50,189 nt of DNA, taken from the NCBI GenBank assembly GCA_009885805.1, contig VFJZ01000024.1, positions 1-50,189 of the forward strand, in the 5' to 3' direction. The notes under the pieces are model-generated. The model did no database searches and was not told the origin of the DNA. It saw nothing but the letters and a program-made list of their open reading frames with translations. The position numbers and the translations under genes were made by a program. The stretch comes from Actinomycetota bacterium (GTDB taxonomy: Bacteria; Actinomycetota; Thermoleophilia; Gaiellales; F1-60-MAGs149). Positions 1 to 42,575 of this stretch are shown one piece after another. How positions within the stretch are numbered: position 1 is the first letter of the stretch; each line of letters starts with the position of its first letter.

Positions 1-146
1 GCTCGATCGCGCACCAGGCCGCGATCACCGGTGACACCGTCGGCGATCCCTACAAGGACACCGCAGGGCCAGCGATCAACCCGATGATCAAGATCGCGAA
101 CATCGTCGCGATCCTGATCATCCCGCTGATCGTCAACCTCTCGTAG
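1..146 (+). CDS. hppA: Membrane-bound H+-translocating pyrophosphatase, C-terminal end (partial)
   Basis: Reading from base 3 gives 47 residues ending at TAG 144-146. They contain the signature tail [20 protein letters not shown] followed by a hydrophobic last helix ([14 protein letters not shown]). This GDTVGDPxKDTxGP block is characteristic of the C-terminus of membrane-integral pyrophosphatases, which couple pyrophosphate hydrolysis to H+ (or Na+) transport across the plasma membrane. The rest of the gene lies left of the window, so the ion specificity cannot be judged. Its stop codon overlaps the TAGCCT box proposed as the promoter of the next gene. Confidence 0.9.
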
Positions 147-149
147 CCT
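144..149 (+). promoter_or_regulatory. -10-like box TAGCCT, 7 nt before GTG of the M20 gene
   Basis: TAGCCT matches the TANNNT pattern seen before most unlinked genes here. With 7 nt to the GTG, transcription would begin at or next to the start codon (leaderless). The TAG is also the hppA stop. No Shine-Dalgarno sequence is visible. Confidence 0.45.
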
Positions 150-156
150 TCGCCGC

Positions 157-1314
157 GTGATCCCGGACCTGATCGAGCCGGAGGAGGTCACCGACCTCCT
201 CCGGCTCCTCGTCCGCACGCCGAGCGTCACCGGCGAGGAGCGGGCGGTCGCCGAGGTCGTGGCTGCCTGGCTGCGGGAGCGGGGCGTCGAGGCGCGGCTC
301 GTCGAGGCCGAGCCCGGCCGGCCGAACGTGATCGCGGCGTTCGGCAGCGGTCGTCCCGGCCTGGTGCTGAACGGCCACTACGACGTCGTTCCTGTCGGTG
401 CCGGTTGGACGCGCGACCCGTGGGGCGGCGAGATCGAGGACGGCCGGCTGTACGGCCGCGGCGCCGCCGACATGAAGGCGGGCGTCGCCTGCGCGATGGT
501 CGCGTTCGTCGCCGCCACCCGTGCCGTGCGCGAGCCGCTCGGGCGGCTCCTGCTCACGCTCGTGATCGACGAGGAGGACGCCGGCCGCGGGACGCGCGCC
601 GTGATTCGCGATGGCCTGGACTGCGATTGGGCGGTCGTCTGCGAGCCGACGGACCTCGTCGCCGTGCGGGCCGCACGCGGCAACTGCTACCTCGACGTCA
701 CGGTCAGCGGCGTCTCCGCCCACGCCGGGAACCCTGACCTCGGGGTGAACGCGATCCACGCCGGTGCCGAGGTGGTGCGGCGCGTCGTCGAGTTCGACCG
801 CGAGCTGCAGCGGCGTACGCATCCGTTGCTGATGCCGCCGCGGACCGGTGTCGGGACGATCGAGGGCGGCCTGCTGGTGTCCGCGGTGGCGCCGGACTGC
901 ACGATGCGCATCGATCGTCGCACCCTGCCGGGCGAGGATGGCGCCAGCGCGCTCGCCGACCTGCAGCGAGTCCTGGCCGCAGCTCCGATCGAACCCGCTG
1001 CGGCACAGGTGGCTGTGGCGCTGACGATGGAGATGCCGCCGTTCGAGACGCCCGCCGATCACCCGTTGCTCGCCGCCCTGCGCGCCTGCGCGGAGGAGGC
1101 GGGGGCCAGGCCGGCGGAACCGATCGGCGCCACCTACGCGACCGATGCCGGCTTCATCGCCCGGGACGCCGGACTGCCGGTGGTCGTGTTCGGCCCGGGC
1201 AGCGTGACGGAGGCGCACCGGCCGGACGAATCCGTGCCGCTGGCGGATCTGCCGGTCGCAGCGCGTACCTACGCGTTGCTGGCCGAGCGGATCCTGACCG
1301 GCCGGTGGCGCTGA
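157..1314 (+). CDS. M20 family metallopeptidase/deacylase (ArgE/DapE type)
   Basis: 385 residues, a normal length for the ArgE/DapE/ACY1/CPG2 family of zinc amidohydrolases. Metal-binding motifs are visible: GHYDVVP (H74, D76), YGRGAADMKAG (D105), the general base pair E139-E140 in IDEEDAG, CEPTD (E163), and a C-terminal EAHRPDE histidine. The dimerisation lid (SGVSAHAGNPDLGVNAI) lies in the middle. The substrate is probably an N-acylated amino acid or small peptide; whether it is N-acetylornithine, succinyl-diaminopimelate or something else cannot be told from motifs alone. It starts at GTG 157, 10 bp after hppA, with no ribosome binding site. The last codons lie inside a palindromic repeat. 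Confidence 0.85.
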   Translation: MIPDLIEPEEVTDLLRLLVRTPSVTGEERAVAEVVAAWLRERGVEARLVEAEPGRPNVIAAFGSGRPGLVLNGHYDVVPVGAGWTRDPWGGEIEDGRLYGRGAADMKAGVACAMVAFVAATRAVREPLGRLLLTLVIDEEDAGRGTRAVIRDGLDCDWAVVCEPTDLVAVRAARGNCYLDVTVSGVSAHAGNPDLGVNAIHAGAEVVRRVVEFDRELQRRTHPLLMPPRTGVGTIEGGLLVSAVAPDCTMRIDRRTLPGEDGASALADLQRVLAAAPIEPAAAQVAVALTMEMPPFETPADHPLLAALRACAEEAGARPAEPIGATYATDAGFIARDAGLPVVVFGPGSVTEAHRPDESVPLADLPVAARTYALLAERILTGRWR

Positions 1315-1882: not shown

Positions 1883-3159
1883 CAGCGCGGCAGGACCCGC
1901 AGCACGTGTGGTTCGCCGGCGACGACGCCGAGCGTACAGATCCCGTTGACGGCGGCGAAGAAGCGGCCCTCCGGTGCCGGATGGGTCGTGACGACGAGTT
2001 GTGCCCGTCCCGCTGCCGCCCTCTGGATGACCGACTCGATCGAGACCTGCTCGTCGGCCAGCACCCGTGCGATCTGCGCCAGCACGCCGGGCGCGTCGAG
2101 CACGTCGAGGCGGAGGTAGAACGCGCTCGGCACCTCAGCCTCCGGCACGATCGCCACCTGCCGGAAGTAGCCGTCGTGGGTGAAGAAGCCGGTGCCGGAC
2201 GTCCCGAGTACGGTCATGACGTCGCCGATCACGGCCGACGCCGTCTCGTCACCGCCGGCGCCCGGGCCCGCGAGGGTGATCTCGCGGATGGCCGACCCGC
2301 GGAGCATGACGGCGTTGAACGATCCCTCGACGGCGGCGAGTGGATGGCCCTCGGGGACGAGCGTGGGGTGGACGCGAGCGGTGACGCCGCCGGCGAGTCG
2401 TTCGGCCGACGCGATCAACTTGATGCGATAGCCGAGTTCGCGCGCGATCGCCGAGTCGATCGCCTCCAGGCGCTCGATGCCGTCGAACGGCACGTCGTCG
2501 AGGGTAACGCGGGTGTGGAATGCGATCGAGGCGAGGATGGCGATCTTCGCTGCCGCGTCGGCACCGTTGACATCCTCGGTCGGGTCGGCCTCGGCGTAGC
2601 CCAGCTCCTGGGCGCGGGCGAGGGCGGCGCCGTAGTCCTGCCCGGCCGCCATTGCCGTGAGGATGAAGTTCGTTGTTCCGTTGACGATCCCGAGCACGCC
2701 GGAGACGTCGTTGGCAATCATCGACTCGCGCAGCACCTTCACCACGGGAATCGCTGCGCAGACCGACGCCTCGAACCGGAGCTGGACGCCGTGTCGCTCG
2801 GCAGCGGCGAACAGCTCCTCGCCGTGACGCGCCAGGAGCTGCTTGTTCGCGGACACGACCGACTTGCCGGCCGCGAACAGCTCGAGCAGGTAGCCGCGGG
2901 TCGGCTCGACGCCGCCCATCACCTCTGCCACGACACTGATCGTCGGGTCGTCCCTGACCGTCGCGAAGTCGGCGGTGAGGACGCCGGCGGCGGGCGACGC
3001 CGACCGCGCCCGGGTGACGTCGCGCACCAGCGCGCGCCGCACCTCGACGGGCGAACCGGCGACCCGCTCGATCTCCGTGGCACGGTCGCGCAGCAGCCGA
3101 TCGACGGCCGATCCGACCGTTCCGTAGCCGAGCAGACCGATCGCGACGCCCGTGGTCAT
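1882..3159 (-). CDS. hom: Homoserine dehydrogenase
   Basis: 425 residues from ATG 3159 (an in-frame TTG lies one codon upstream). It reduces aspartate semialdehyde to homoserine with NAD(P)H, the branch step for threonine and methionine. An N-terminal Rossmann motif (IGLLGYGTVGSAV), the SANKQLLA segment, the GxxNGTTNFIL motif and the catalytic region AEADPTEDVNGADAAAKIAIL are present. The C-terminal ACT domain (LDAPGVLAQIARVLADEQVSIESV) fits allosteric control by threonine. It is divergent from thrC across a 41-bp gap with a symmetric promoter, so the two genes are likely co-regulated. It is followed by the overlapping cupin gene. Confidence 0.95.
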   Translation of the reverse strand: MTTGVAIGLLGYGTVGSAVDRLLRDRATEIERVAGSPVEVRRALVRDVTRARSASPAAGVLTADFATVRDDPTISVVAEVMGGVEPTRGYLLELFAAGKSVVSANKQLLARHGEELFAAAERHGVQLRFEASVCAAIPVVKVLRESMIANDVSGVLGIVNGTTNFILTAMAAGQDYGAALARAQELGYAEADPTEDVNGADAAAKIAILASIAFHTRVTLDDVPFDGIERLEAIDSAIARELGYRIKLIASAERLAGGVTARVHPTLVPEGHPLAAVEGSFNAVMLRGSAIREITLAGPGAGGDETASAVIGDVMTVLGTSGTGFFTHDGYFRQVAIVPEAEVPSAFYLRLDVLDAPGVLAQIARVLADEQVSIESVIQRAAAGRAQLVVTTHPAPEGRFFAAVNGICTLGVVAGEPHVLRVLPR

Positions 3160-3168
3160 CAAGCCGGC

Positions 3169-3192
3169 AAGCGTACCCGGTCGCGTACGCTT
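3169..3192. promoter_or_regulatory. Symmetric divergent promoter/operator between hom and thrC
   Basis: AAGCGTAC, an 8-nt spacer, then GTACGCTT: perfect 8-bp arms. Each arm contains TACGCT reading outward. On the plus strand the box (3186-3191) is 9 nt from the thrC ATG. On the minus strand (3175-3170) it is 10 nt from the hom ATG. These positions suit -10 boxes of leaderless mRNAs, and the symmetry also makes a possible operator for a dimeric regulator. Confidence 0.6.
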
Positions 3193-3200
3193 CGAGCGCC

Positions 3201-4241
3201 ATGCCAGGCCTCATCGACCGCTATCGCGCGCGGCTTCCCGTCGGCCCCGCGACACCGATCATCAGCCTCGGCGAAGGCTCGACACCGCTGCTCGCGGCGC
3301 CGCGTCTGTCCGAGCTGCTGGGCGTCGATCTGCACCTGAAGCTGGAGGGCGCCAACCCGACCGGGTCGTTCAAGGACCGGGGCATGACGCTCGCCCTGTC
3401 GAAGGCCGCTGAGGACGGCGCCCGAACGGTCATCTGCGCGTCCACCGGTAACACGTCGGCATCGGCCGCAGCGTACGCGGCGCGAGCCGGGATCCGCTGC
3501 GTGGTGGTCGTCCCCGGCGGCAAGGTCGCGCTCGGCAAGCTTGCGCAGGCGCAGGCCGCGGGCGCGGTCGTGTGTGCGATCGACGGCTCGTTCGACGACG
3601 GGCTGCGGCTGGTGCTCGAACTGTGCGAGCGGCATCCGATCACCCTCGTCAACAACCTCAATCCGTACCGTCTGGAGGGTCAGAAGACGGCCGCGTTCGA
3701 GATCGTGGAGGAACTGGGCGTCCCCGACTGGCTGGCGCTCCCGGTTGGCAACGCCGGCAACATCACGGCCTATCACCGCGGCTTTCGCGAGGCCGTGGCG
3801 GCGGGTGACGCGGCCCAGTGCCCGCGGCTGCTCGGCTGTCAGGCGGCCGGCGCGGCGGCGATGGTGCGTGGGGTGGACATCGGCGACCCGGAGACGATCG
3901 CGACGGCGATCCGGATCGGCGCGCCCATCCGCCGCGACGAGGCAGTGCGGGCGGCGCGCGAGTCCGAGGGAGCGTTCGTGGCGGCCGCCGACGAGGAGAT
4001 CCTCGAGTGGTACGGGCGCGTCTCGGTCCTGGAGGGCGTGTTCTGCGAGCCTTCGAGCGCGACGAGCCTGGCAGGTCTGGCGCGGGCACGCGCGGACGGC
4101 ACGGTCGAGGAGGGCGCCCGTGTCGTCTGCGTTCTGACGGGGCACGGCCTCAAGGATCCGGAGACGGCGACGGCGCACTCGGCACCGACGCTCCGGTCAC
4201 CGGCGACGCTGGCCGCACTCGAGCGGATCGCGCTCGGCTGA
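3201..4241 (+). CDS. thrC: Threonine synthase
   Basis: 346 residues, the short PLP-dependent form common in Actinobacteria. It converts O-phosphohomoserine to threonine. The PLP lysine is K58 in ANPTGSFKDRG. Other family blocks are the LGEGSTPLL N-terminus, the STGNTSASAAAYAARAG phosphate-binding loop, LPVGNAGNITAYHRG and FCEPSSATSLAGL. It starts at ATG 3201, 9 nt after a TACGCT box, with no Shine-Dalgarno. It is divergent from hom, its pathway partner. Its last 92 bases overlap the convergent glycosyltransferase gene. Confidence 0.95.
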   Translation: MPGLIDRYRARLPVGPATPIISLGEGSTPLLAAPRLSELLGVDLHLKLEGANPTGSFKDRGMTLALSKAAEDGARTVICASTGNTSASAAAYAARAGIRCVVVVPGGKVALGKLAQAQAAGAVVCAIDGSFDDGLRLVLELCERHPITLVNNLNPYRLEGQKTAAFEIVEELGVPDWLALPVGNAGNITAYHRGFREAVAAGDAAQCPRLLGCQAAGAAAMVRGVDIGDPETIATAIRIGAPIRRDEAVRAARESEGAFVAAADEEILEWYGRVSVLEGVFCEPSSATSLAGLARARADGTVEEGARVVCVLTGHGLKDPETATAHSAPTLRSPATLAALERIALG

Positions 4242-5487
4242 TCCCGGCTGCCAGCGTGACACCCGCGAGCACCGCGGGTTCGGGGACGGCCGGGACTCGG
4301 AACCGTGCGTACGACTCGGGGCCAGCGGAGAGGCCGACGAGGTAGACGGCCGTGACGAGTACGGGGAGCGCGGCCCGGAGGAGGCGCCGGCGACGAAGCA
4401 CGACGACCGCGAGCAGCGCGGCCAGGGCGACCGTCAGCGCGAAGGCGGTCTGGATGCCGAGGAGCGGCAGCCGGATGGCGCCCGGGAGCGTACGGCCGGG
4501 GCCGACGAGCGCGACTTCGAGCTGTTCCCGGCCAGGTCCCGCGGTGGCGTTCGCGAGCCCGCGGGCCGCGGACAGCAGCGCGCCGCGCGGGTGGTCGCGC
4601 AGCACCTCCAGGCCGAGGTCGCGCTTGATCGGCCCGAGCTCCGTCGGTGTCGCCCCCGGCGCCCGTTCCCGGAGCAGGACCTCCATCTCGGTCCTGGCCT
4701 CCGCCCAGGTGATGCCACGCTCACGCGCGACCGCATCGGCCGCGCGGTAGAACAACATGTTGTGGCCCTCGACAGTCGAGATCACGGCCACGCCGCCCAC
4801 GGTGTGGTTGCGTGCGATCCAGCCCGCGACCGGCGGGGCGAAGCCGGCGAGAAAGACCGCCGCGAGCGCGACGCCGCGGCGGAATCCCGTCCGCGCGGCG
4901 ATCGCCAGCGCGGGGAGCAGGAGCAGCGGCAGATAGGCTCCGATCGGCCGTACCAGGACGGCGAGGCCGAGTACGAGGCCGGCGGCCAGGACCAGGCGGC
5001 GCTGGCCACTCGTGTACCCACGGACGGCCAGGAGAAGCCCGCCGGCGGTCACGACGGCCGCGACCGTTTCGGTCAGAAGCGCCACCGAGTAGAGGGCGCT
5101 TACGGGGTCGAGCGCGATCACGGCGGCGGCGGCCCGTCCGGCGGTGCGTCCGGCGATCCGCACGCCGAGCGCGTAGGCGATGACCGCGCAGGCCAGCGAG
5201 AGGAAGACCTGGACGGCGAGGACCGCCACGTCCGACCCGCCGGTGACCGCGTGTACACCGGCGATCAGGAGCGGATAGCCGGGCGTGCGCAGGAACCCGA
5301 GCGTCTGCAGGCCACCGGCGTCGGCGTCGCCGCCGTAGGCCGTGCCGAGGTCAGCGGCGATCGCGAGGTACTCGACGGAGTCGACGTCGACGTAGCGGGC
5401 CGCGTCCGAGGCGACGAACGCGAGGAGCACGAGCCGCAGCGCCAGGCCAGCGGCGACGATCCAGCGGAGGACCCGGTCGTCTGTCAC
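4150..5487 (-). CDS. Membrane glycosyltransferase of GT-C fold (ArnT/PMT-like)
   Basis: 445 residues with about ten hydrophobic helices and a long extracytoplasmic segment. After the first helix comes an acidic loop (RYVDVDSVEYLAIA), the position where GT-C enzymes carry catalytic acidic residues. FLRTPGYPLLIAGVHAV follows, as in the dolichyl-phosphate mannosyltransferase/ArnT superfamily. It would transfer a sugar from a polyprenyl-phosphate carrier outside the membrane; donor and acceptor are unknown. GTG start 5487 overlaps the stop of the HAD-like gene (GTGA). The Pro/Ser-rich C-terminal tail (TGASVPSAPSPSPDP) is read across the end of thrC on the other strand. Confidence 0.8.
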   Translation of the reverse strand: MTDDRVLRWIVAAGLALRLVLLAFVASDAARYVDVDSVEYLAIAADLGTAYGGDADAGGLQTLGFLRTPGYPLLIAGVHAVTGGSDVAVLAVQVFLSLACAVIAYALGVRIAGRTAGRAAAAVIALDPVSALYSVALLTETVAAVVTAGGLLLAVRGYTSGQRRLVLAAGLVLGLAVLVRPIGAYLPLLLLPALAIAARTGFRRGVALAAVFLAGFAPPVAGWIARNHTVGGVAVISTVEGHNMLFYRAADAVARERGITWAEARTEMEVLLRERAPGATPTELGPIKRDLGLEVLRDHPRGALLSAARGLANATAGPGREQLEVALVGPGRTLPGAIRLPLLGIQTAFALTVALAALLAVVVLRRRRLLRAALPVLVTAVYLVGLSAGPESYARFRVPAVPEPAVLAGVTLAAGISRARSARVRPASPVTGASVPSAPSPSPDP

Positions 5488-6280: not shown

Positions 6281-6292
6281 GGCCACACGGTA
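6281..6292 (-). promoter_or_regulatory. TACCGT box 6 nt before the VanZ-like start
   Basis: The minus strand reads TACCGT at 6292-6287, then 6 nt, then GTG 6280. It fits the TANNNT leaderless pattern and supports the downstream GTG as the start. Confidence 0.4.
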
Positions 6293-6356
6293 GTTGTTGC
6301 ACTTCCGTGGCGGTCCGGCACGGTCCGGTACGAACGGGCCGTGTGAGGCTTGCCCC

Positions 6357-8348: not shown

Positions 8349-8354
8349 TACCCT
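8349..8354 (+). promoter_or_regulatory. TACCCT box 10 nt before pcrA ATG
   Basis: A TANNNT hexamer directly after the palindrome and 10 nt before ATG 8365. There is no Shine-Dalgarno between it and the start, so a leaderless pcrA mRNA is expected. Confidence 0.4.
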
Positions 8355-16022: not shown

Positions 16023-16028
16023 TACATT
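16023..16028 (+). promoter_or_regulatory. TACATT box 8 nt before the GNAT start
   Basis: TANNNT hexamer followed by 8 nt and ATG 16037, with no ribosome binding site: a leaderless-type start. Confidence 0.4.
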
Positions 16029-19892: not shown

Positions 19893-22246
19893 CCGAACAG
19901 TCTCCTCGAGACGAACGGGATCCGGAACCGCAGCAGGCCGAACACGCCGACGGCGAAGGCGAACGCGACCAGCGCGAGGAGCCACTCGACGAAGCCGAGC
20001 ACCTCGAGCGCGAAGAAGCTGCGCACCGGCTCGATCAGGAACACCGCGACGAAGCCGGCGAGGAGGACCCCCATCAGCAGGAGGACGGAGTGCGCGCGGA
20101 CGCGCGAGTGCTGCATCGCCTCGTCCTCCAGCAGGAGCACGAGGTAGAGGCCGGTCAGGACGAGGACGACGAGCGCCACGGTGCGGCCGGTCGGCACGTC
20201 GGAGACGCTGCGGGCGAAGCTGTAGGCGAGGATCACGGCGCCGCCGGAGACGACGCCGCCGGGGACCGCGAAGCGGAGCAGGTCGCGCATGAACGCGAGG
20301 CGCGGCGGCCGCCCGCTGGACGGCGCGAGCGCCAGGGCGAAGGCCGGGACGCCGATCGTGAAGAAGGCGGCGAGCGACAGGTGACGGGGCAGCAACGGGT
20401 ACGCGACGCCGGCCACGCCAACGGTCAGGATCAGGGTCGCGGCGAACGACGACTTGACGACGAACAGTTTGGCGACGCGTCGGATGTTGGCGAGGATCCG
20501 CCGCCCCTCGGCGATGCCGAGGGGAATGGCACGGAAGTCGTTGCCGATCAGCACGATGTCGGAGACGCCGCGCGCGATCTGCGCGCCCGACCCGAGCGCG
20601 ATCGCGATGCGCGCCGCCTTCATCGCCGGCACGTCGTTGACACCGTCGCCGACCATCGCGGTGTAGCGGCCACGGCGGGCGAGGGCCTCGATCAGGGCCT
20701 GCTTCTGCTCGGGCGTCACGCGCGCGAAGATCGCGTGCGCGGCGGCGATCTCCTCCAGGGCGGCGGGGTCGTCGGGGAGGTCGGCGCCGGTGATGCTGGA
20801 GGTGTCGGCGAAGCCGGCCGCCCGCGCCACCGCCTCCACGGTTCCCGGCGCATCGCCGCTCATCACCTTGAGGTCGACGCCCTCGTCGCGCAGGTAGGCG
20901 ACGACCTCGCGCGCCTCCGGCCGCATCCGTTCCCTGATCACGGCCAGGCCGACCGGTCTGAAGCCCGGAGGCGTCGCCGGCACCTGGCCCGGGCCGGGTG
21001 CTTCCGGCAACTCGTCGGCCGTGCCGAAGACGAGGACGCGCGCACGTTCGCCCTGACGCCGTGCGACCTCGGTCGCGAGCGGACCGGCACCGAGTGCCTC
21101 GGGCGCCCCGAGGAGCAGCACCGTGTCGCGGAAGCGGGCGCCGGACCACTTCCAGCGCGACGCGAACTGCACCTCGGCCAGCGTTTCCTCCGGGGCGCCG
21201 CCGAGCGCGTTCGCGATCGCATCCGATGTGGCCGACCGCACCGACCCGGCCGACGCGACGCGGGCGAGTGCGCGCTCCGCCTCCGGCTGGGCGATGCCCG
21301 GCGCCGCGACGATCTCGACCAGCTCGAGGCTGCCGTCCGTGAGGGTTCCTGTCTTGTCCAGGCAGACGGTGTCGACGGATGCGAGCGACTCGACGGCGTT
21401 CAGCTGCTGGGCGAGGGCGCCCGCCCGGCCGATGCGGACCGCCCCGGCGGCAAACGTGATCGAGGCGAGGAGGACGAGGCCCTCCGGGACGAGCGAGATG
21501 AGACCGGCGGTGGCGGTCTGCGCTCCTTCGCGGAACTGGACGTCGTGCAGCCAGAGCGCGGCCACGAGCACCGCGGCGAGGGGCGCCATCGCCACCAGCA
21601 GCACTCGCAACAGCCGGTCGATCTCGAGCTGGAGCGTCGACGGCCGCCGCTTCTGCTCGCGCGCCTTCGCCGTCAGGCGATGCGCGAAGGAGTCGGAGCC
21701 GACACCCGTGACGCGGTAGAGGCCGCTCCCCGAGGCGCAGTAGGCGCCGGAGAGGATCGCGTCGCCGACCTCCTTCGCCGCCGCGTCCGACTCGCCGGTC
21801 AGGATCGACTCGTCGAGTGCGAGGCCGCTCGCCGCGACGACGATGCCGTCCGCCACGACCTGGTCACCGGGCTGCAGGTCGACGATGTCGTCGGGCACCA
21901 CCTCGTCCGCGGGAATCGTCCGTTCCGCGCCGTCGCGGCGGACGCGCGCTCGCGGGGCGACGAGGAGCGCGAGCCGGTCGAGCTTGCGCTTCGCGGACAG
22001 CTCCTGCCAGATGCCGATCACGGTGTTGACGGCGATCACGCCGGCGAAGAGGGCGTCGTGCCAGGCCTCGGCGAGGGCGATCAAGACGAGGAAGCCGAGC
22101 GCGATCGCGTTGACGAGGGTGAGGACGTTCTCGCGGACGATGCGCCGAGCGCTGCGCGATCCCGTGACCGGCTCGCGGGGGCCGAGGCGGGCTGCGCGCT
22201 CCGTCGCCTCAGCGGTCGTCAGTCCCCTGATCGCGTCGGCCGTCAC
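19889..22246 (-). CDS. P-type cation-transporting ATPase (CtpE-like)
   Basis: 785 residues with the full P-type set: TGES (150-153, actuator), VPEGLVLLAS (membrane ion-binding helix, residues 253-262), DKTGTLT with phosphorylated D297, KVMSGDAP, and MVGDGVNDVPAMK (hinge). About ten membrane helices are predicted. The PEGLVLL motif and QQLNAVESLASVDTVCLDKT resemble mycobacterial CtpE, which has been linked to calcium uptake; cation assignment here is inference. No heavy-metal-binding N-terminal domain is present. GTG start lies 6 nt after TACGCT. It is divergent from the Lon-like gene with only 26 bp between starts. Confidence 0.9.
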   Translation of the reverse strand: MTADAIRGLTTAEATERAARLGPREPVTGSRSARRIVRENVLTLVNAIALGFLVLIALAEAWHDALFAGVIAVNTVIGIWQELSAKRKLDRLALLVAPRARVRRDGAERTIPADEVVPDDIVDLQPGDQVVADGIVVAASGLALDESILTGESDAAAKEVGDAILSGAYCASGSGLYRVTGVGSDSFAHRLTAKAREQKRRPSTLQLEIDRLLRVLLVAMAPLAAVLVAALWLHDVQFREGAQTATAGLISLVPEGLVLLASITFAAGAVRIGRAGALAQQLNAVESLASVDTVCLDKTGTLTDGSLELVEIVAAPGIAQPEAERALARVASAGSVRSATSDAIANALGGAPEETLAEVQFASRWKWSGARFRDTVLLLGAPEALGAGPLATEVARRQGERARVLVFGTADELPEAPGPGQVPATPPGFRPVGLAVIRERMRPEAREVVAYLRDEGVDLKVMSGDAPGTVEAVARAAGFADTSSITGADLPDDPAALEEIAAAHAIFARVTPEQKQALIEALARRGRYTAMVGDGVNDVPAMKAARIAIALGSGAQIARGVSDIVLIGNDFRAIPLGIAEGRRILANIRRVAKLFVVKSSFAATLILTVGVAGVAYPLLPRHLSLAAFFTIGVPAFALALAPSSGRPPRLAFMRDLLRFAVPGGVVSGGAVILAYSFARSVSDVPTGRTVALVVLVLTGLYLVLLLEDEAMQHSRVRAHSVLLLMGVLLAGFVAVFLIEPVRSFFALEVLGFVEWLLALVAFAFAVGVFGLLRFRIPFVSRRLFG

Positions 22247-22272
22247 GGCGGCAGCGTACCGGTGGCTCTACC
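22247..22272. promoter_or_regulatory. 26-bp divergent promoter region, ATPase / Lon-like protease
   Basis: The minus strand has TACGCT (22258-22253) 6 nt before the ATPase GTG. The plus-strand counterpart is less clear (TACCGG, 10 nt before ATG). With so little room, at least one mRNA must be leaderless or nearly so. Confidence 0.45.
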
Positions 22273-24693
22273 ATGCCGACGATGCCGCAGCCGCTCGCGA
22301 AGCGGCGTGCCGACCTCGTGGTCGTCGCGTCCGACCTCCGTCTCGTCGTCGATGCCTCCGCCTTCCCGTTCGAGACAACGGTCGCCGTCGCGGCGCCGGC
22401 GTCGATGGTCGGGCAGGAGCGCGCGATCGAGGCCCTCGAACTCGGCCTGTCCCTCCGCGGCACGGGCTCGCACGTGTTCGCAGCCGGCCATCCGGGGACG
22501 GGGCGGACGTCGTCGATCGCGAGCATCCTCGACCGGCTCGCGCCGACGCTGCCGGTGCCGCCTGACCGCGTCTACGTCCATCGCTTCGCCGACCCGGAGC
22601 GGCCGCGGTTGCTGACACTTGGCCCCGGGCACGGCGCCGCGCTGGCGCGGGAGATCGACGAGCTGCGCCGCAACCTCGCGGCCCGCATCCCGCTGCTCCT
22701 CGACGAGCGGGAGCTCGGCCGGCGCCGCGAGGCCCTCGGGAAGCGGTACGCGGCGGAGGAGGAGGCGGAGATCGGCGCGCTCCGGACACGCGCCGAGGCC
22801 GACCAGTTCGCGCTGGTGCAGGTCGACGTCGGTGGCAGCAGCCGTCCCGAGATCGTCGCGATGAAGGGCGGTCAGCCCGCGCCGCCGACCGTGCTCGACG
22901 ATGCCGGTCGGGCGAAGCTCGAGGCCTACAACGAGGAGTTGCGCGAGCTCGCGCGGTCGTCGCGTGAGCGGCAGCGACGGTTCGCCGGTGATCTGCGCGG
23001 TCTCGTCGCGGAAGCGGCTGCCGTGCTCGCTGACGAGGAGGTCGGCGACGTCCGGCGCAACGTCGACGACGAGGCGGTGACCGAGTTCCTCGCGGAGCTA
23101 CGCGACGACATCGTGGCGGCGGTCGTCGATCTGGCGGAGTCGGGGCCGGAGGCGCTGCCACGGCTCGGCGCCCGGATCGAGCGGTATCGCGTGAACGTCC
23201 TTGCCGATCGTTCGGGGCAGACGGGAGCGCCGGTCGTGCACGAGCGCTTCCCGAGCCGCCAGAACCTGGCCGGGTCCGTGGAGCGGGTGCAGGAGGGTCC
23301 GATGAGCTTCCGGGCCGACGCGACGACGATTCGCGGTGGCTCGCTGCTGGCTGCCGATGGCGGCTTCCTCGTCGTCCACGCCCTCGATCTGCTGCAGGAG
23401 CCGGGCGCGTGGGAGGCGTTGAAGCGGACGCTCGAGACAGGACTGCTCGAGGTCGGCGCCTCGCTCCCGGGCATCTTCGGCCTGCCGCGTCCGCTCGAGC
23501 CGGACCCGATCGGTGTCGACGTGAAGGCGGTGCTGGTCGGCGAGCGCGAGCAGTTCGATGCGCTCTGGAACCTTGATCCGGACTTCCGCAAGCTGTTCGG
23601 CATCCGCGCCGACTTCGCCGCCGACATGCCCTACGGGGAGCCTGCGCTCGAACGCTACGCCTGCGTCGTCGCCGGGCTGTGCGCGCGCGAGGGCCATCCA
23701 CCCGTCGAGGCAGGTGCCGTCGGCGCTCTCGTCGAGGAGGGCGTGACGCGCGCCGGGCGCCGGAATCGAGTGTCGGTGCGGTTCGGCGATACGGCGTCGC
23801 TGTTACGGGAGGCTGCGCACGGAACTCGCGCGCGGTCCGGCGAGCTCGTTAGCCGTGATGACGTGGTGGGCGCGCTCGCGGCCCGCCGACGGCGCGAGGG
23901 TCTGATCGAGGAGCGGATGCAGGCGATGCTGGAGGAGGGGATCGTCCTCGTCTCGACGTCGGGCACGGCAGTCGGTCGCGTCAATGGCCTGTCCGTCTAC
24001 CACCTCGGCTACCACGCGTTCGGTAAGCCGACGCGCATCACCGCCTCGGCCGCGCCCGGCCAGGCCGGGATCATCAACGTCGAGCGCGAGGCGCGGCTGT
24101 CGGGGAACATCTACGACAAGGGCGTGTTGATCATCGCCGGCTTCCTTCGTCGGCGTTACGCGGATATCGGCCCGATGACGCTGACGGCGAGCCTGGCGTT
24201 CGAGCAGTCCTACGCCGGCGTCGACGGCGACTCGGCCTCGATTGCCGAGGTGGTGGCGCTGCTGTCGGAACTGTCCGGCCTGCCGGCCGACGGCGGCCTC
24301 GCGATCACCGGGTCGATCAACCAGCACGGCGATGTACAGCCGGTCGGCGGCGTCGACTACAAGATCGCCGGTTTCCACGCCCTCTGCGCAGCGCGAGGGC
24401 TGGATGGCGGGCAGGGCATCGTGATGCCGCACCAGAACGTCCTCGATCTGATGCTCGATCCGGCGATCGTCGCGGACGTGGCCGCCGGGCGCTTCTGCAT
24501 CCATGCCGTCGAGCACGTTACGGATGCGCTGGAGATCGCGCTCGACGCGCCGATGGCAGAGATCGACCGCCTCGTGCGCGAGCGGCTGGCGACGTTCAGC
24601 GCGGCGCTCGCGGACGCCCCTGGTGACCGACCGCCGAGCGGCGCGACGGTGCAGCCGCCGTCGACGCCGATCCCGGATGCGCAAACCCCGTAG
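22273..24693 (+). CDS. Lon-like ATP-dependent protease (AAA+ plus S16 protease domain)
   Basis: 806 residues. The N-terminal AAA part has Walker A GHPGTGRTS at 72-80, with Arg instead of the usual Lys at 78. The middle is helical/coiled (EIDELRRNLAARIPLLLDER and onward) before a second AAA block (GPMSFRADATTIRGGSLLAA). The C-terminal S16 protease domain has Ser654 in DGDSASIAEV and Lys697 in VDYKIAGF. Their 43-residue spacing equals that of the E. coli Lon catalytic pair S679-K722. It belongs to the LonB/LonC-like branch without the substrate-binding LAN domain. The Walker A change and the standard dyad suggest weak or altered ATP use. Confidence 0.88.
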   Translation: MPTMPQPLAKRRADLVVVASDLRLVVDASAFPFETTVAVAAPASMVGQERAIEALELGLSLRGTGSHVFAAGHPGTGRTSSIASILDRLAPTLPVPPDRVYVHRFADPERPRLLTLGPGHGAALAREIDELRRNLAARIPLLLDERELGRRREALGKRYAAEEEAEIGALRTRAEADQFALVQVDVGGSSRPEIVAMKGGQPAPPTVLDDAGRAKLEAYNEELRELARSSRERQRRFAGDLRGLVAEAAAVLADEEVGDVRRNVDDEAVTEFLAELRDDIVAAVVDLAESGPEALPRLGARIERYRVNVLADRSGQTGAPVVHERFPSRQNLAGSVERVQEGPMSFRADATTIRGGSLLAADGGFLVVHALDLLQEPGAWEALKRTLETGLLEVGASLPGIFGLPRPLEPDPIGVDVKAVLVGEREQFDALWNLDPDFRKLFGIRADFAADMPYGEPALERYACVVAGLCAREGHPPVEAGAVGALVEEGVTRAGRRNRVSVRFGDTASLLREAAHGTRARSGELVSRDDVVGALAARRRREGLIEERMQAMLEEGIVLVSTSGTAVGRVNGLSVYHLGYHAFGKPTRITASAAPGQAGIINVEREARLSGNIYDKGVLIIAGFLRRRYADIGPMTLTASLAFEQSYAGVDGDSASIAEVVALLSELSGLPADGGLAITGSINQHGDVQPVGGVDYKIAGFHALCAARGLDGGQGIVMPHQNVLDLMLDPAIVADVAAGRFCIHAVEHVTDALEIALDAPMAEIDRLVRERLATFSAALADAPGDRPPSGATVQPPSTPIPDAQTP

Positions 24694-25555
24694 CCGGCTG
24701 TCGCAATCGTGCCGCACGCCTTTGCGACACGGCACTGTCGCAAAGGCGTGCGGCACCATTGCGACACTGCCGCCACTCGTCGCCTCCGACCTCGACGGCA
24801 CGCTGCTACGCAGCGACGGCACGATCTCCGATCGGACCCGCGCCGCGGTTCAGGCGGTCACGGCCGCCGGCACGACGGTCGTCGCGGCGACCGGCAGGCC
24901 GCCGCGCTGGGTCGATGGACTTCACCTCGAACTCGGCGTGCACGCGCTCTGTGTCTGCCTGAACGGAGCGATGCTGCTCGACCTCGCGACCGGCGAGGAA
25001 CTCGCCCACCGCCCGTTTGCGGACGGTGCCGCGATGGCGATCGCCCTCGACGTGCGTGCCGCTCTTCCGGGCATCCAGTTCGCCGGGCAGCTCGGCGCGC
25101 GCTTTGCCCGCGAGCCGGCGTGGGCGCCGATGTTCCCGCACGCGACCGACCTGATCGCGCCGCTCGAGGAGTTCACGAGCAGGACCGTCACGAAGCTGAT
25201 CGTCCGGCATTCCGACCTCGCGCACGACGCGCTGGCACGCGCCGTTCGCGAGGTCGCGGGCGAGCGCGCGCTGGTGACATTCTCCGGGATGCGGATCGTC
25301 GAGCTTTCGTCGCCCGGCGTCCACAAGGCATCCGGTCTGGCGGCAGCCGCCGATCTCCTGGGTGCGAGTCTCGGCGACGGCATCGCGTTCGGCGACGCAC
25401 CGAACGACATCCAGATGCTGGCTGCGGCACGCTGGGGCGTCGCGATGGCGAACGGCCACGCCGACGTGCTCGCCATCGCCGACGAGGTCACGGCCACGAA
25501 CGACGAGGACGGAGTCGCGCTCGTCCTGGAGCGGCTTGTCGGCGCCGGCTCGTAG
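24677..25555 (+). CDS. HAD-superfamily (Cof-type) phosphatase with repeat-derived N-terminus
   Basis: 292 residues if started at ATG 24677. The HAD core begins at residue ~33: LVASDLDGTLLRSDG (nucleophile Asp), TTVVAATGRPPRW (motif II Thr), KASGLAAAADLLG (motif III Lys) and IAFGDAPNDIQMLAAA (motif IV GDxxND). This is the Cof/YbiV sugar-phosphate or flavin-phosphate phosphatase type. There is no ATG or GTG in frame between the repeat and the core; the only ATG lies in the end of the Lon-like gene. The first ~30 residues would then be encoded by the inverted pair of family B repeats. A start at CTG 24767 or ATT 24758 is the alternative. The TAG stop forms part of the thrS promoter box. Confidence 0.8.
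   Translation: MRKPRSRLSQSCRTPLRHGTVAKACGTIATLPPLVASDLDGTLLRSDGTISDRTRAAVQAVTAAGTTVVAATGRPPRWVDGLHLELGVHALCVCLNGAMLLDLATGEELAHRPFADGAAMAIALDVRAALPGIQFAGQLGARFAREPAWAPMFPHATDLIAPLEEFTSRTVTKLIVRHSDLAHDALARAVREVAGERALVTFSGMRIVELSSPGVHKASGLAAAADLLGASLGDGIAFGDAPNDIQMLAAARWGVAMANGHADVLAIADEVTATNDEDGVALVLERLVGAGS
24699..24766. repeat. Inverted pair of 31-bp family B palindromic repeats
   Basis: Units 24699-24729 and 24736-24766 are reverse complements with one mismatch, separated by CGGCAC. Each unit is itself near-palindromic, with ends TGTCGCAA and TTGCGACA and core CGTGCCGCACG. A single unit (29 of 31 identical) is at 30033-30063. The pair can form a stem of about 30 bp, between the Lon-like stop and the HAD core. 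Confidence 0.88.
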
Positions 25556-25558
25556 ACT
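25553..25558 (+). promoter_or_regulatory. TAGACT box 7 nt before thrS ATG
   Basis: TANNNT hexamer whose TAG is the stop codon of the preceding phosphatase gene. The same TAGACT occurs before pheS and the sugar-dehydrogenase-like gene. It predicts a leaderless thrS transcript. Confidence 0.45.
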
Positions 25559-30016: not shown

Positions 30017-30028
30017 CCTCTCACTCTA
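30017..30028 (-). promoter_or_regulatory. TAGAGT box 6 nt before GTG 30016
   Basis: The minus strand shows TAGAGT, then GAGAGG, then GTG. It fits the leaderless pattern, although GAGAGG could also pair weakly with 16S rRNA. Confidence 0.4.
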
Positions 30029-30906: not shown

Positions 30907-30912
30907 AGGCTA
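30907..30912 (-). promoter_or_regulatory. TAGCCT box 8 nt before metF ATG
   Basis: The box overlaps the stop region of the upstream methyltransferase gene. It would give metF its own leaderless transcript in addition to read-through from upstream. Confidence 0.35.
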
Positions 30913-32627: not shown

Positions 32628-32640
32628 GCGGGAAAGCCTA
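32628..32640 (-). promoter_or_regulatory. TAGGCT box 7 nt before Fic ATG
   Basis: The minus strand reads TAGGCT at 32640-32635, then TTCCCGC, then ATG 32627. No Shine-Dalgarno is present. Confidence 0.4.
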
Positions 32641-32670: not shown

Positions 32671-32751
32671 TTGACACGACGCCAAAGGAACGTGTGGTAC
32701 CCCTGTCCTCGCCGCTGGCTGCGGATCGTCGCAGACGTCCGCCGATAGACT
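32671..32751 (+). promoter_or_regulatory. pheS promoter region
   Basis: Two candidates: TTGACA at 32671-32676 with TGGTAC 18 bp downstream, and TAGACT (32746-32751) 9 nt before the ATG, the same box as at thrS. The second would give a leaderless message. No attenuator peptide with Phe codons and no T-box is seen. Confidence 0.4.
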
Positions 32752-32760
32752 CCGACACCG

Positions 32761-38503: not shown

Positions 38504-39516
38504 GCGCCGGCCCGGCCGCCGTAGTTGGCGGCGACGTAGTCGGTGTAGTCCGCCCCCGCCTGGATGGCGCGCCACCACGGCTCGTTGGCGCGGTACCACT
38601 CGACGGTCGCGCGCAGGCCGTCCTCGAAGCCAATCGTCGGCGCCCAGCCGAGGGCGCGCAGCTTCGCGCAGTCGATGGCGTAGCGGCGATCGTGCCCGGG
38701 CCGGTCGGCAACGTGCTGGATCAGTTCATCGTCGGCCTCGAGGATCTCGACCACGCGCCGCGCCGTATCGAGGTTGACTTGCGCCTGCTCGGAGCCGCAG
38801 TTGTAGGCCTCGCCGGCAACGCCGCGGAGCAGTACGGTCTCGATGCCGGCGGCGAAGTCGGAGACGTGGGTGAACTCGCGCACCTGGAGGCCGTCGCCGT
38901 AGATCGGCAGCGGTCGGCCCTCGATCGTGTTGATGGCGAGCACCGGGATGAACTTCTCCGGGAACTGGTGCGGCCCGTAGGCGTTCGCGCCGCGCACGAT
39001 CGTCGCGTCGATGACGTACGTCCGCACGTAGGCCGCCACCAGCAACTCAGCGGCGGCCTTCGCCGCCGCGTAGGGCGAGGAGGCGTGGAGCAGGTCCGTC
39101 TCGACCGATCGGTGGGGAGCCGCGATGTCGCCGTACACCTCGTCGGTCGACACCTGGACGAAGCGCGTGCCTTCGTGTGCCGCCGCCCAGTCGAGCAACC
39201 GCTTGGTGCCGAGGATGTTCGTCGTGATGAACTCGTCGCCGCCCATGATCGAGCGGTCGACGTGCGTCTCGGCGGCGACGTTGACGATCGCGTCGCAGCC
39301 CTCCGCCGCTTCGGCGACCGCCGCCGCGTCGGCGATGTCGCCGCGCACGAACCGGTAGCGCGGATCGTCCGGGACGTCGGCGAGGTTCTCGGGTCGGCCG
39401 GCGTAGGTCAGCAGGTCGAGGTTGACGACCGTGGCGCCTGGATGGCCGTCGAGCAGACGGCGGACGAGGTGCGAGCCGATGAACCCGCAGCCGCCCGTGA
39501 CGAGGATCCGCTGCAT
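38500..39516 (-). CDS. rfbB: dTDP-glucose 4,6-dehydratase
   Basis: 338 residues, an extended short-chain dehydrogenase. NAD-binding motif VTGGCGFIGSHLVRRLLDG, acidic catalytic region VSTDEVYGDI (Thr-Asp-Glu), and YAAAKAAAELLV (YxxxK). It makes dTDP-4-keto-6-deoxyglucose. ATG start lies 6 nt after TAGGAT; CAGAGG between them could act as a weak ribosome site. First gene of the rfbB-rfbA pair, divergent from the sugar-dehydrogenase-like gene. Confidence 0.96.
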   Translation of the reverse strand: MQRILVTGGCGFIGSHLVRRLLDGHPGATVVNLDLLTYAGRPENLADVPDDPRYRFVRGDIADAAAVAEAAEGCDAIVNVAAETHVDRSIMGGDEFITTNILGTKRLLDWAAAHEGTRFVQVSTDEVYGDIAAPHRSVETDLLHASSPYAAAKAAAELLVAAYVRTYVIDATIVRGANAYGPHQFPEKFIPVLAINTIEGRPLPIYGDGLQVREFTHVSDFAAGIETVLLRGVAGEAYNCGSEQAQVNLDTARRVVEILEADDELIQHVADRPGHDRRYAIDCAKLRALGWAPTIGFEDGLRATVEWYRANEPWWRAIQAGADYTDYVAANYGGRAGA

Positions 39517-39522
39517 CCTCTG

Positions 39523-39548
39523 ATCCTATCCGCCGCCACCGGTAGACT
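39523..39548. promoter_or_regulatory. Divergent TANNNT boxes, rfbB / dehydrogenase-like gene
   Basis: In a 38-bp gap the minus strand has TAGGAT (39528-39523) 6 nt before the rfbB ATG, and the plus strand has TAGACT (39543-39548) 6 nt before ATG 39555. This is a compact back-to-back arrangement as at hom/thrC. Confidence 0.5.
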
Positions 39549-39554
39549 GGCGCG

Positions 39555-41612
39555 ATGGGCGGGAACAGGACGGGGATCGCCACGGCGGCGCGGGCGGTCG
39601 TCGCCGTCGCCATCGCCGCCGTCGGCCTGGTCGGGATCTGGGCCGTGTTCCGGCCCTTCCAACCCGGACCGGATCGTCTGACGGTGACCTTCGACGAGGT
39701 GCCGTACGGCGCCATGATCGGTTTGGACGTCGACGGGCGGCGCCTGACGAGCGCTCCGGCGCCGAGCGGCGGTCAGTGGGCGCAGACGCTGACCATCACG
39801 CCGATCGCCGCTGTCGGGGAGTCCGGCGGCGGCGTCCGCTTCATCTGGGACGCCGCCGCGGAGGCGCCACCGGCCGGCTGGACGATCGAGCGCGATGCCG
39901 GGCCCGCTCGCGTTCTCGGCGTCCCGGGTGTCTCCGGACCGTTTCCGATCAGTTTCGGGGACGGCCCGACGCTCGCGCTGCCGTTCGCAGTCGGGCCGGG
40001 AAACGGCAGGGCGCTCGTCGAGGGGCCTGGCGGCGCGGTCGTCGTCGACCTGTCGACACCGACTCCGAGCGGGTTCCGCGAGGTCGTGCTCGACGCCCGG
40101 CGTCTCACTCGCGGGCCAGCGACCGCGGTGATCGACGTCCCGGTCGACGCCGCCCGCGTCCGCCTCTACCCGAGCTCGGTAGCCGGCCGGGTCGTCGTGC
40201 GGCGTGCTGTCGTGACAGGCTCCCGCGAGGTCGCGTTGAGGCTGGCCGACGCGCCCGTGGGGCCCGGTCTCACCCGGATCGACGCGACCGCCTTCGACGT
40301 CGTCAGCCCCGGAGCCGCGTACATCGACGTGCCGCCATTGCCGCCGCCGCCGATGTTGCATGCCGGAAACGTCCGTGTGCTCCTCGCTGCGGCCGTCTCG
40401 TCGCTTCTGGCGATCCTCGGCGCGTTCGCCGTCGGACGGCTTCGGCGTCCGCTGCTCGTCGCCACGGGGATGACGGTCGTCGGCCTGATCGCGGCCGGCG
40501 CCGTGGCCGCACGGCTGGCGGACGACGTCCCCGGCGGGGCGCCGCTGGCTGTCGTCATTGCCGACGACGCCACGCTGGTCGCGGTGGGAAGGGCGACGAC
40601 GGATGCTGCTGCGACCTTCGCGGTCCTCCCCGACGACAGTATTCTCGTTGGCGGCAAGGGCGGGTTCGGCGGTGAGGCGGACGCCTGGATCGAACGCCTG
40701 CCGGCAGGCGGTGGTCCGGCGGTCAGGATCGGCTCGCTCCGCGTCTGCACGGAGGCCGAGCGCGGGTTGCTCGGCCTCGAGGCGAGTCGCTCGTTCGCAA
40801 CCGATCGGGTCGTCTACGCCTTCCGGACGGCCGCTGCGGCCGCCTGCGGCACCGGTCGGGCGCCCGGCACCGCGCCGACGAACGAGGTTCTGCGCCTGAC
40901 GCTCGCGCCCGACCTCGGCTCGATCGTGCGCGAAGAGGTGATCGCGACCGGGATCCCGTCCTACACCGCCGCGCACAACGCGGGTGGCCTTCGACTTGCC
41001 GAGGACGGCGCGCTGTACGTCTCGATCGGCGATAGCGGGGACGGCGCGCTCTCCCGGGAGCCGGGCTCGGTCCTTGCGAGGATCGTCCGGATACCCGCCG
41101 ACCGTCTTGCCGGCGGTGCTCCCATAGTCGCTGCCGAGTTGGCATCGATGACGTTCGCCGTCGGCTTCCGCAACCCGTTCCGGTTCGCGCTGCTGGACGC
41201 CCAGCACCTGCTGGTGAACGATGTAGGCTCGGCGCCGCCCTCGGCGGCGGAGGAGGTCAACCTGGTCGTCGAGGGCGGCGACTACGGCTGGCCCTACTTC
41301 GAGGGCCCGTCCTCCGACGATCGCTTCGCTGCGCCCTTGTGGTCCTACCCGCACAACGACGGCTGTGCGTCCACGACCGGTGGCACGATCGGGATGCAAG
41401 GCGCCTTCGGCGCCCGTGGCCGCCCCTACGTCTTCGGAGACTTCACGTGTGGTCGCCTCTACGTGCTCGACCTGGACGGCACGCACCCACGGGAACTGAC
41501 CCGGATCCGAGATCTCGACCCGCAGCTCCTGCCTGCCGAATTCCGCACGACGGCCGACGGGCGGGTGGTCGTGCTCGGCTTCGGGGGGACCGTGTACGAG
41601 ATCAGGCGCTGA
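39555..41612 (+). CDS. Membrane-anchored glucose/sorbosone dehydrogenase-like (GSDH, PQQ-type propeller) protein
   Basis: 685 residues. TM1 is near the N-terminus (ARAVVAVAIAAVGLVGIWAV). A beta-rich domain follows (~35-270). Two more helices follow (VLLAAAVSSLLAILGAFAVG, LLVATGMTVVGLIAAGAVAA, ~275-325). The C-terminal ~360 residues form the GSDH beta-propeller: LLGLEASRSFATDRVVYAFR, NAGGLRLAEDGALYVSIGDSG, FAVGFRNPFRFALL, GGDYGWPYFEG and FGDFTCGRLYVLD. The propeller is probably extracytoplasmic. Whether it binds PQQ is uncertain; many relatives have unknown activity. Its place beside rhamnose genes suggests a role in surface glycan metabolism or sensing. Confidence 0.8.
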   Translation: MGGNRTGIATAARAVVAVAIAAVGLVGIWAVFRPFQPGPDRLTVTFDEVPYGAMIGLDVDGRRLTSAPAPSGGQWAQTLTITPIAAVGESGGGVRFIWDAAAEAPPAGWTIERDAGPARVLGVPGVSGPFPISFGDGPTLALPFAVGPGNGRALVEGPGGAVVVDLSTPTPSGFREVVLDARRLTRGPATAVIDVPVDAARVRLYPSSVAGRVVVRRAVVTGSREVALRLADAPVGPGLTRIDATAFDVVSPGAAYIDVPPLPPPPMLHAGNVRVLLAAAVSSLLAILGAFAVGRLRRPLLVATGMTVVGLIAAGAVAARLADDVPGGAPLAVVIADDATLVAVGRATTDAAATFAVLPDDSILVGGKGGFGGEADAWIERLPAGGGPAVRIGSLRVCTEAERGLLGLEASRSFATDRVVYAFRTAAAAACGTGRAPGTAPTNEVLRLTLAPDLGSIVREEVIATGIPSYTAAHNAGGLRLAEDGALYVSIGDSGDGALSREPGSVLARIVRIPADRLAGGAPIVAAELASMTFAVGFRNPFRFALLDAQHLLVNDVGSAPPSAAEEVNLVVEGGDYGWPYFEGPSSDDRFAAPLWSYPHNDGCASTTGGTIGMQGAFGARGRPYVFGDFTCGRLYVLDLDGTHPRELTRIRDLDPQLLPAEFRTTADGRVVVLGFGGTVYEIRR

Positions 41613-41696
41613 CCGCCCCGCCCGGCGCGGGTGCGACGTTGCCGCTGCGTCACGTCGCACGGCGTGCAGGGCGTTCGGCACACCGGTTCGGCGCCG

Positions 41697-42563
41697 TCAG
41701 GAGGAGGGCTGCAGGCCGCGCCCGCCGTCACCGTCCGACGCGAGATACTCGGCAAGTGCCTCCTGCCATGGCGCGAGCGCCGGCAGGCCGAGCGCATCGG
41801 TCCGCGACCGGCCGAGCAGACCGTTCGGCGGTCGCAGCGCCCGCCCAGGAGCCTGCTCCGTCGCCGTCCGCTCGACCGTCGCCCTGATATGCGCGAGCCG
41901 CAGCGTCTCGACAGCCAGGTCCCACCAGGTGCAGGCCCCCGCGTTGGTGAGGTGGACGACCCCTGCCGGTCGTCCCTGCACCACTGCGCCGAGTGCGACG
42001 GCCAGGTGTCGACACGAGGTCGGAGCGATGAACTGGTCGGCGACGACGGCGAGCGGACGACCGGCGCGGGCACCCGCGAGGATGCGCGCCACGAAGCTCC
42101 CGCCCTTGGCGCGGCTGCCAGCGTCGCCGTAGAGGGCGGACGTGCGTACGATGGTGGCCGTGGGGGCGACGGCCATCGTCGCAAACTCGCCGGCGAGTTT
42201 GGAAGCGCCGTAGACGTTGATCGGTCGCGGTGGGTCGTCTTCCTCGTACGGGCGGGCGGCGGTACCGGAAAAGACGTAGTTCGTCGACAGGTAGATGACG
42301 TGCGCGCCGGCGGCGGCCGCCGCCCGCGCGACGCAAGCAGCCCCGACCGCGTTGACGGCGAATGCGCCGGCCATCCCCGCATCCTCGGCCCCGTCGACGT
42401 CGACGAACGCCGCGCAGTTGACGACAACGTCCGGGCGCGCGCCGGCAACCGCCGCCGCGATCCCGGCGCGGTCGGTGACATCGGCGTCGATGGGCACTGC
42501 GCCGCTCGCCGCGATGAGGGCACGGCCGAGCTGGCCTCGTGCCCCAGTGACCGCGATCCGCAC
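41697..42563 (-). CDS. rfbD: dTDP-4-dehydrorhamnose reductase
   Basis: 288 residues, last step to dTDP-L-rhamnose. Rossmann motif VTGARGQLGRALI at the N-terminus, PDVVVNCAAFVDVDGAED, YLSTNYVFSGTAARPYEEDD, INVYGASKLAGEF with the YxxxK pair, and LRPPNGLLGRSRTDALGLPA. The GTG start lies 6 nt after TACGAT. It is separated from rfbB by the GSDH gene and convergent with it. With rfbA, rfbB and rfbC it completes the pathway within 6.4 kb. Confidence 0.93.
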   Translation of the reverse strand: MRIAVTGARGQLGRALIAASGAVPIDADVTDRAGIAAAVAGARPDVVVNCAAFVDVDGAEDAGMAGAFAVNAVGAACVARAAAAAGAHVIYLSTNYVFSGTAARPYEEDDPPRPINVYGASKLAGEFATMAVAPTATIVRTSALYGDAGSRAKGGSFVARILAGARAGRPLAVVADQFIAPTSCRHLAVALGAVVQGRPAGVVHLTNAGACTWWDLAVETLRLAHIRATVERTATEQAPGRALRPPNGLLGRSRTDALGLPALAPWQEALAEYLASDGDGGRGLQPSS

Positions 42564-42575
42564 GCCCGCATCGTA
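42564..42575 (-). promoter_or_regulatory. TACGAT box 6 nt before rfbD GTG
   Basis: The minus strand reads TACGAT at 42575-42570, GCGGGC, then GTG 42563. Another TAGGAT on the plus strand (42614-42619) lies 35 nt before the divergent methyltransferase ATG. Confidence 0.4.

Follow-up and report, generated by a model that had tools for sequence, protein, structure and literature searches.

Candidate leaderless promoters with proximal -10 boxes, some embedded in stop codons, in a genome of the Gaiellales

Why do so many genes on contig VFJZ01000024.1 of the actinomycetotal assembly GCA_009885805.1 carry the hexamer TANNNT a few nucleotides ahead of their start codons? The contig, complete at 50,189 bp and hereafter called the window, belongs to a draft genome of 3.56 Mb (101 contigs, 95% complete) placed in the Gaiellales, Thermoleophilia, Actinomycetota, within a family labelled f1. 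An original prediction, made from the window alone, had listed 15 such boxes at about 23 transcription-unit starts and read them as signs of leaderless transcription as the default. All 15 were found with the hexamer and spacing given there, each before an open frame with coding character (Table 1). Four of them, ahead of M20, thrS, metF and the gene at 30016, contain the TAG stop codon of the preceding gene, a feature that the prediction had overlooked.

Box frequency and predicted leaderless starts

The source-genome sample comprised 1,117,238 bp, made up of the window and 60 stretches picked by contig number, with a GC content of about 71% and 1094 called genes. Genes were called with a purpose-written simple codon-usage caller, with starts set by coding score alone unless stated, and transcription units were deduced solely from gene order. 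Genes were classed as having a divergent upstream neighbour, as mid-gap (21-59 nt), as far-gap (at least 60 nt) or as internal (gap of 20 nt or less). Rows were excluded if the gene had no called upstream neighbour, was open at a contig end, scored below 15 or started within 60 nt of an end. A strict box is defined as TANNNT ending 6-9 nt before an acceptable start, and eight patterns of the same three letters served as decoys. Comparison stretches were taken from two genomes of other genera in family f1 (G001 and G004), from a genome of a different family in the same order (G020) and from 15 other Gaiellales genomes, treated as a pool.

In the source-genome sample, a strict box precedes 137/304 (45%) of the divergent-neighbour genes against a decoy mean of 9.4, and 44/101 (44%) of the mid-gap genes against 2.4. 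Far-gap genes have one in 28/147 cases (decoys 4.0) and internal genes in 60/447 (13%; decoys 9.1), with a decoy rate of 2-3% over the classes. Equality between internal and divergent-neighbour genes had been named as evidence against the idea; the two rates are unequal. With codon-only starts, the distance profile of non-internal genes is empty at 5 nt (0.0%), reaches 12.5% at 6 nt and falls to 7.6, 4.9 and 3.4% at 7, 8 and 9 nt. Among the 167 divergent-neighbour genes lacking a strict box, relaxed forms are also in excess (CANNNT 37 and GANNNT 34 against 7-16 for decoys), so that the strict counts underestimate and the real share at divergent-neighbour starts may lie somewhat above half. The 15 of about 23 starts listed for the window are consistent with such a share. 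The word "default" is nevertheless too strong, as the strict box reaches about half of the divergent-neighbour genes at most and 269 of the 999 genes examined over all classes. The third base, said to be always C or G, is so in 15/15 window boxes and in about 80% of free boxes (C 46, G 35, T 15, A 4%; n=384, four genomes); TAS is therefore kept as a preference and rejected as a rule or special form of the box.

Similar rates were observed at divergent-neighbour genes of related genomes, with 40/86 in G001, 52/108 in G004, 42/90 in G020 and 32/85 in the pool of other Gaiellales. A genome-wide count of TASNNT-N6-RTG relative to the N5 form across 60 Actinomycetota genomes places the source genome fourth (403/74 = 5.4), with a median of 1.45 and 22/60 genomes above 2; its box signal is strong yet not unique. 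A pooled Firmicutes control, in which Shine-Dalgarno motifs precede 259/444 genes, has no peak at 6-9 nt (1.1-2.7%). Divergent genes on plasmids of D. deserti, R. jostii and S. clavuligerus gave 14/46, 10/73 and 6/68 boxes against decoy values of 5.6, 5.1 and 3.2, rates which fall below expectation from published chromosomal figures and are not used to rank taxa.

The sequences around these starts are in keeping with leaderless mRNAs. A Shine-Dalgarno motif precedes 5% of the divergent box genes in the source genome (n=137) as opposed to 28% of those lacking one (n=167) and 34% of boxless internal genes (n=387), the control position giving 9-13% over these groups. Box genes thus have Shine-Dalgarno motifs only at or below background, with the exception of the far-gap box genes of G001 (25%, n=12). 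The 16S tail of Thermoleophilia is listed with CCUCC in the available text of PMC10783764, and the anti-Shine-Dalgarno sequence is therefore expected to be intact. Furthermore, TTG starts are nearly absent from box genes (2/450 versus 43/1218 without a box, p=1e-4), as would follow from a purine being expected as the first transcribed base. At spacings 6 and 7, C directly precedes the start in 60-62% of cases, compared to 49% in divergent genes without a box. At spacing 8 (n=29) this C is shifted one base upstream and G stands directly before the start, which suggests that transcription there begins 7-8 nt past the box and leaves a one-base leader.

Clear deviations ahead of the box are confined to the four columns next to it: C is favoured at -3 and G at both -2 and -1, and T is avoided at -1. 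No convincing -35 element was found by spacer counts or by column and k-mer enrichment, TTG occurring at each spacer of 12-23 nt in 0-4 of the 384 free boxes. The interval in which a -35 element would be expected, 15-28 nt ahead of the free boxes, is enriched in runs of C (CCCC 29 versus 8.4 expected; source genome, G001 and G004). The boxes would accordingly represent -10 elements of housekeeping-sigma promoters. Recognition would rest on a sequence approximating C-G-N-TA-S-N-N-T, no -35 element being clear, and transcription would begin with the start codon's first base or at most about 3 nt ahead of it, yielding leaderless mRNAs. From these features we infer that RNA polymerase starts at these positions and that the resulting mRNAs are translated leaderless. 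We regard leaderless transcription from proximal -10 boxes as the best reading, with a probability of about 0.8. The original claim has gained from the position and spacing of the boxes, the exclusion of Shine-Dalgarno motifs, the near-absence of TTG and the depletion at internal genes; it has lost "default" and the TAS rule, and it stays a prediction.

Boxes on stop codons and competing explanations

When box positions in the source-genome sample are measured against the upstream gene's end, boxes of 23 genes lie exactly on the stop codon, while any other offset between -20 and +12 holds at most 5. Only thrS and metF represent the window among these 23, a consequence of the caller overlooking thrC at 3201 and the gene at 30016 and of M20 having no complete gene upstream. 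An unbiased test, in which each tandem pair was counted once and starts came from codon statistics only, was made on a family pool of the source genome, G001 and G004. Here, TAG or TAA (TAR) stops end the upstream gene in 51/65 tandem pairs at gaps of 9-11 nt versus 174/449 at gaps of 13-300 nt (p=2e-9). A T at +3, completing TARNNT, follows 38/51 of these TAR stops at 9-11 nt versus 24/174 at the longer gaps (p=5e-16). This enrichment is seen in the source genome alone (23/31 versus 13/77) as well as in G001 and G004 together (15/20 versus 11/97), and it is missing for TGA stops, where T at +3 occurs in 1/14 pairs at 9-11 nt and 34/275 at longer gaps. The fifth position of stop-codon boxes is also biased (A 31% versus 9%, T 0% versus 11%) in the manner of free boxes (A 27%, T 4%), which disfavours a mere stop-plus-T translation signal. 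By gap, internal genes carry a box in 25/49 cases at 9-12 nt, 13/32 at 13-20 nt and 15/198 at the 4-nt overlap. The motif does not resemble GGAGG, as stop and following bases read TARNNT, and a Shine-Dalgarno motif occurs in 17% of the 23 source-genome genes with a stop-codon box compared to 13% at the control position. Stop-codon boxes amount to 3.4, 4.1 and 2.4% of tandem pairs in the three f1 genomes.

The simplest evolutionary path would set out from a TAG or TAA stop, which offers the TA of the box from the outset, so that a single T three bases on would complete it and a tandem gene would keep its own leaderless promoter within about 9 nt of intergenic DNA. Such promoters would presumably fire independently of the upstream gene. 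We consider it rather probable that in family f1 a stop codon regularly supplies the first half of the next gene's -10 element, serving both termination and recognition by RNA polymerase. Tandem genes would then keep separate leaderless promoters about 9 nt apart, and the use of TAG and TAA and the preferred gap would be set by promoter selection instead of termination or ribosome binding. TA is rare at 71% GC, and the stop codon would provide it free, a compact solution if true. Many operon-like pairs with a spacing of 9-11 nt would in that case have independent promoters, and part of the TAG and TAA usage would require a transcriptional explanation.

The close pairs could also be explained by translational coupling, in which a TAG or TAA stop and the T, at gaps of 9-11 nt, form a termination-reinitiation signal within one polycistronic mRNA. 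The genes are indeed close and co-directional, and coupling is known for close or overlapping pairs (in the available part of PMC6728339). Coupling does not predict, however, that T is enriched only if the stop gives TA (38/51 TAR against 1/14 TGA), nor that the fifth position of stop-codon boxes shares the A enrichment and T depletion of free boxes. The spacing of stop-codon boxes is the same as at divergent-neighbour genes, and the 4-nt overlap, the commonest close arrangement, seldom has a box (15/198). We therefore judge coupling to be unlikely. It is more improbable still that the boxes are ordinary promoters with normal leaders whose genes truly start further downstream. Start calls are unreliable in GC-rich sequence and several window genes have more than one candidate start; starts placed at random relative to the boxes would, however, not be expected to cluster 6-9 nt from them and to drop to 0.0% at 5 nt, and few Shine-Dalgarno motifs stand ahead of the called starts of box genes.

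A translational signal has likewise been weighed, for instance an element near -10 that contains U and is bound by the ribosome or by S1; S1 binding is raised as a possible cause of the U bias there in Actinobacteria in the accessible text of PMC5397173. Such a signal should be indifferent to gene arrangement, whereas boxes mark 45% of divergent-neighbour and 44% of mid-gap genes against 13% of internal ones. Furthermore, in their TANNNT form, their spacing of 6-9 nt and the C-G ahead of them, the boxes agree with mapped promoters described in parts of PMC3898074 and PMC8079986, and we hold this explanation to be very improbable. Chance or composition might have been suspected from the initial set of boxes, which was small and hand-picked with several spacings allowed. 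It is refuted by the counts, namely 9.4 for same-letter decoys against 137/304, 403 instances of TASNNT-N6-RTG against 74 for N5, and the Firmicutes pool with no 6-9 nt peak, and its probability is negligible.

Several observations weigh against proximal leaderless promoters or their placement on stop codons. All gene starts rest on the simple caller, and the p-values assume that gene pairs are independent. TTGAC occurs slightly above expectation at spacers of 15-28 nt (3 versus 0.6 in 229 boxes). A stop-codon box occupies the approximate site of a Shine-Dalgarno motif, whose absence there is partly forced. The stop-codon pattern is also weaker outside f1, with 3/268 tandem pairs in G020 and 1/181 in the Gaiellales pool; G020 shows no peak at gap 9, and T at +3 is found there in 3/7 versus 0/44 pairs (p=0.002). 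Finally, RbpA (PF13397) was not found in 31/31 Gaiellales genomes searched, 13 of them at least 90% complete, while the Corynebacterium glutamicum control genome was positive. RbpA has been dropped as a candidate helper factor for this reason, and the machinery is therefore not simply equated with the mycobacterial one. CarD_TRCF domains are present, with two of three matches over the cut-off. In mycobacteria, RbpA and CarD both help promoters that consist of a -10 element only.

The 15 boxes and their neighbourhood in the window

The original prediction had described the box genes as unlinked. This is doubtful for four of the 15, with starts at 157, 25566, 30016 and 30898, since their boxes include the TAG of a co-directional gene whose stop lies 9-11 nt before the start. 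The claim that exceptional genes without a box possess a Shine-Dalgarno motif held for the MCP gene (start 13256), with AGGAG at 5 nt, and for the DEAD helicase gene (17772), with AAGGA at 9 nt.

Table 1. Positions of the 15 TANNNT boxes in the window and the genes they precede (distance from box to start in nt)
Box	Position	Strand	Distance	Gene	Start	Remark
TAGCCT	144..149	+	7	M20 peptidase	GTG 157	includes TAG stop of upstream gene
TACGCT	3170..3175	-	10	hom (homoserine dehydrogenase)	ATG 3159	7 nt from in-frame TTG 3162
TACGCT	3186..3191	+	9	PALP family (thrC of the original prediction)	ATG 3201	faces hom box
TACCGT	6287..6292	-	6	VanZ family	GTG 6280	
TACCCT	8349..8354	+	10	pcrA/uvrD-type helicase	ATG 8365	
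TACATT	16023..16028	+	8	GNAT	ATG 16037	
TACGCT	22253..22258	-	6	P-type ATPase	GTG 22246	
TAGACT	25553..25558	+	7	thrS	ATG 25566	includes TAG stop of upstream HAD gene
TAGAGT	30023..30028	-	6	hypothetical	GTG 30016	TAG 30026-30028 is the metF stop codon
TAGCCT	30907..30912	-	8	metF	ATG 30898	includes TAG stop of upstream gene
TAGGCT	32635..32640	-	7	Fic domain	ATG 32627	
TAGACT	32746..32751	+	9	pheS	ATG 32761	
TAGGAT	39523..39528	-	6	epimerase/dehydratase (rfbB of the original prediction)	ATG 39516	
TAGACT	39543..39548	+	6	GSDH domain	ATG 39555	faces rfbB box
TACGAT	42570..42575	-	6	RmlD family (rfbD)	GTG 42563	

Conservation was followed at pheS, where a box lies at 6-10 nt in 14/29 scored loci, the source genome counted and locus L107 excluded as its match begins at a contig edge. 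At eleven pheS loci named as Actinomycetota or Thermoleophilia, at least five of them from the same order, stop-codon boxes number 3/101 tandem pairs, or 4 by box position, in four different genes. The stretches compared hold too few orthologues for the conservation of individual stop-codon boxes between genomes, and close tandem pairs (gap 9-11 nt) on the plasmids of D. deserti, R. jostii and S. clavuligerus, at 1, 0 and 1, are too few to judge such boxes. Two records titled as metagenome-assembled genomes of "Bifidobacterium breve" (L002 and L004) carry the pheS of this Gaiellales family (63% identical), and the public names of both look wrong.

Two divergent pairs have boxes facing each other. 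The hom and PALP-family genes (3159-3201) and the epimerase and GSDH-domain genes (39516-39555) are separated by 41 and 38 nt, with the boxes 10 and 14 nt apart, and simultaneous binding of two polymerases would therefore hardly be possible. The P-type ATPase and LonB-type protease genes are likewise divergent, with a 26-nt spacer (22246-22282), and the Lon gene has a second candidate start at 22282 with TACCAT 7 nt ahead of it. Tail to tail, the PALP-family gene (3201-4241, +) overlaps a glycosyltransferase-like gene (4150-5487, -) by about 92 nt at 4150-4241. Between the convergent M20 and cupin genes, at 1312-1392, lie the units AAGGTGCCGGGCACCTT and GGCGCTGAAGGTGCC, which recur and are in part palindromic; they may act as a terminator or belong to a small repeat family.

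Comparison with known systems

The leaderless habit is already known in related bacteria, and the proposed -10 element embedded in a stop codon would be the new part. No account of a -10 box formed in part by a stop codon was found in the open-licence literature (subscription papers being outside the scope of the search), and none is reported in the accessible portions of PMC6448022, PMC9581028, PMC6319747, PMC10653884, PMC5397173 and PMC6728331. The present counts extend the leaderless signature from a few model actinobacteria to uncultured members of the Thermoleophilia, whose gene starts are readily mis-annotated.

The closest likeness is offered by the mapped promoters of M. tuberculosis (PMC3898074, available text), where 22-26% of genes are leaderless. 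They share with the Gaiellales boxes a TANNNT -10 element, the lack of a conserved -35 element, a frequent CGN before the box and a purine as first base, preceded by C at -1. Of the tRNA synthetase genes that have a primary start in that species, one half are leaderless, which parallels the thrS and pheS boxes described here. Starts were mapped in M. tuberculosis, whereas those of the Gaiellales are predicted from sequence, and the term "stop codon" has 0 occurrences in the main text of that study, which leaves stop-codon boxes unmentioned. Genes led by a TA box exceed 20% in Actinobacteria and Deinococcus-Thermus according to the accessible part of PMC3160421, with TANNNT about 12 nt upstream of starts, as here; the three positions in its middle carry little information in genomes of high GC. 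The same text treats leaderless genes as operon-proximal and, with 0 occurrences of "stop codon", describes no placement on the stop codons of tandem genes. In Streptomyces lividans, 17% of genes are leaderless (PMC8079986, in the text available); their promoters likewise carry TAnnnT, at a mean of 6.3 nt from the start, and 97% of leaderless transcripts begin with a purine. These promoters also have a TTGACn -35 motif, in contrast to the Gaiellales boxes, which show no comparable signal. A parallel for the recruitment itself is found in the available part of PMC2784483, where stop codons overlap Shine-Dalgarno motifs in short spacers, so that the stop is likewise drawn into the initiation signal of the next gene and stop usage is biased at certain gaps. 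There, the recruited signal is a ribosome-binding site, whereas in family f1 it would be a -10 promoter box, with TAG and TAA favoured at gaps of 9-11 nt.

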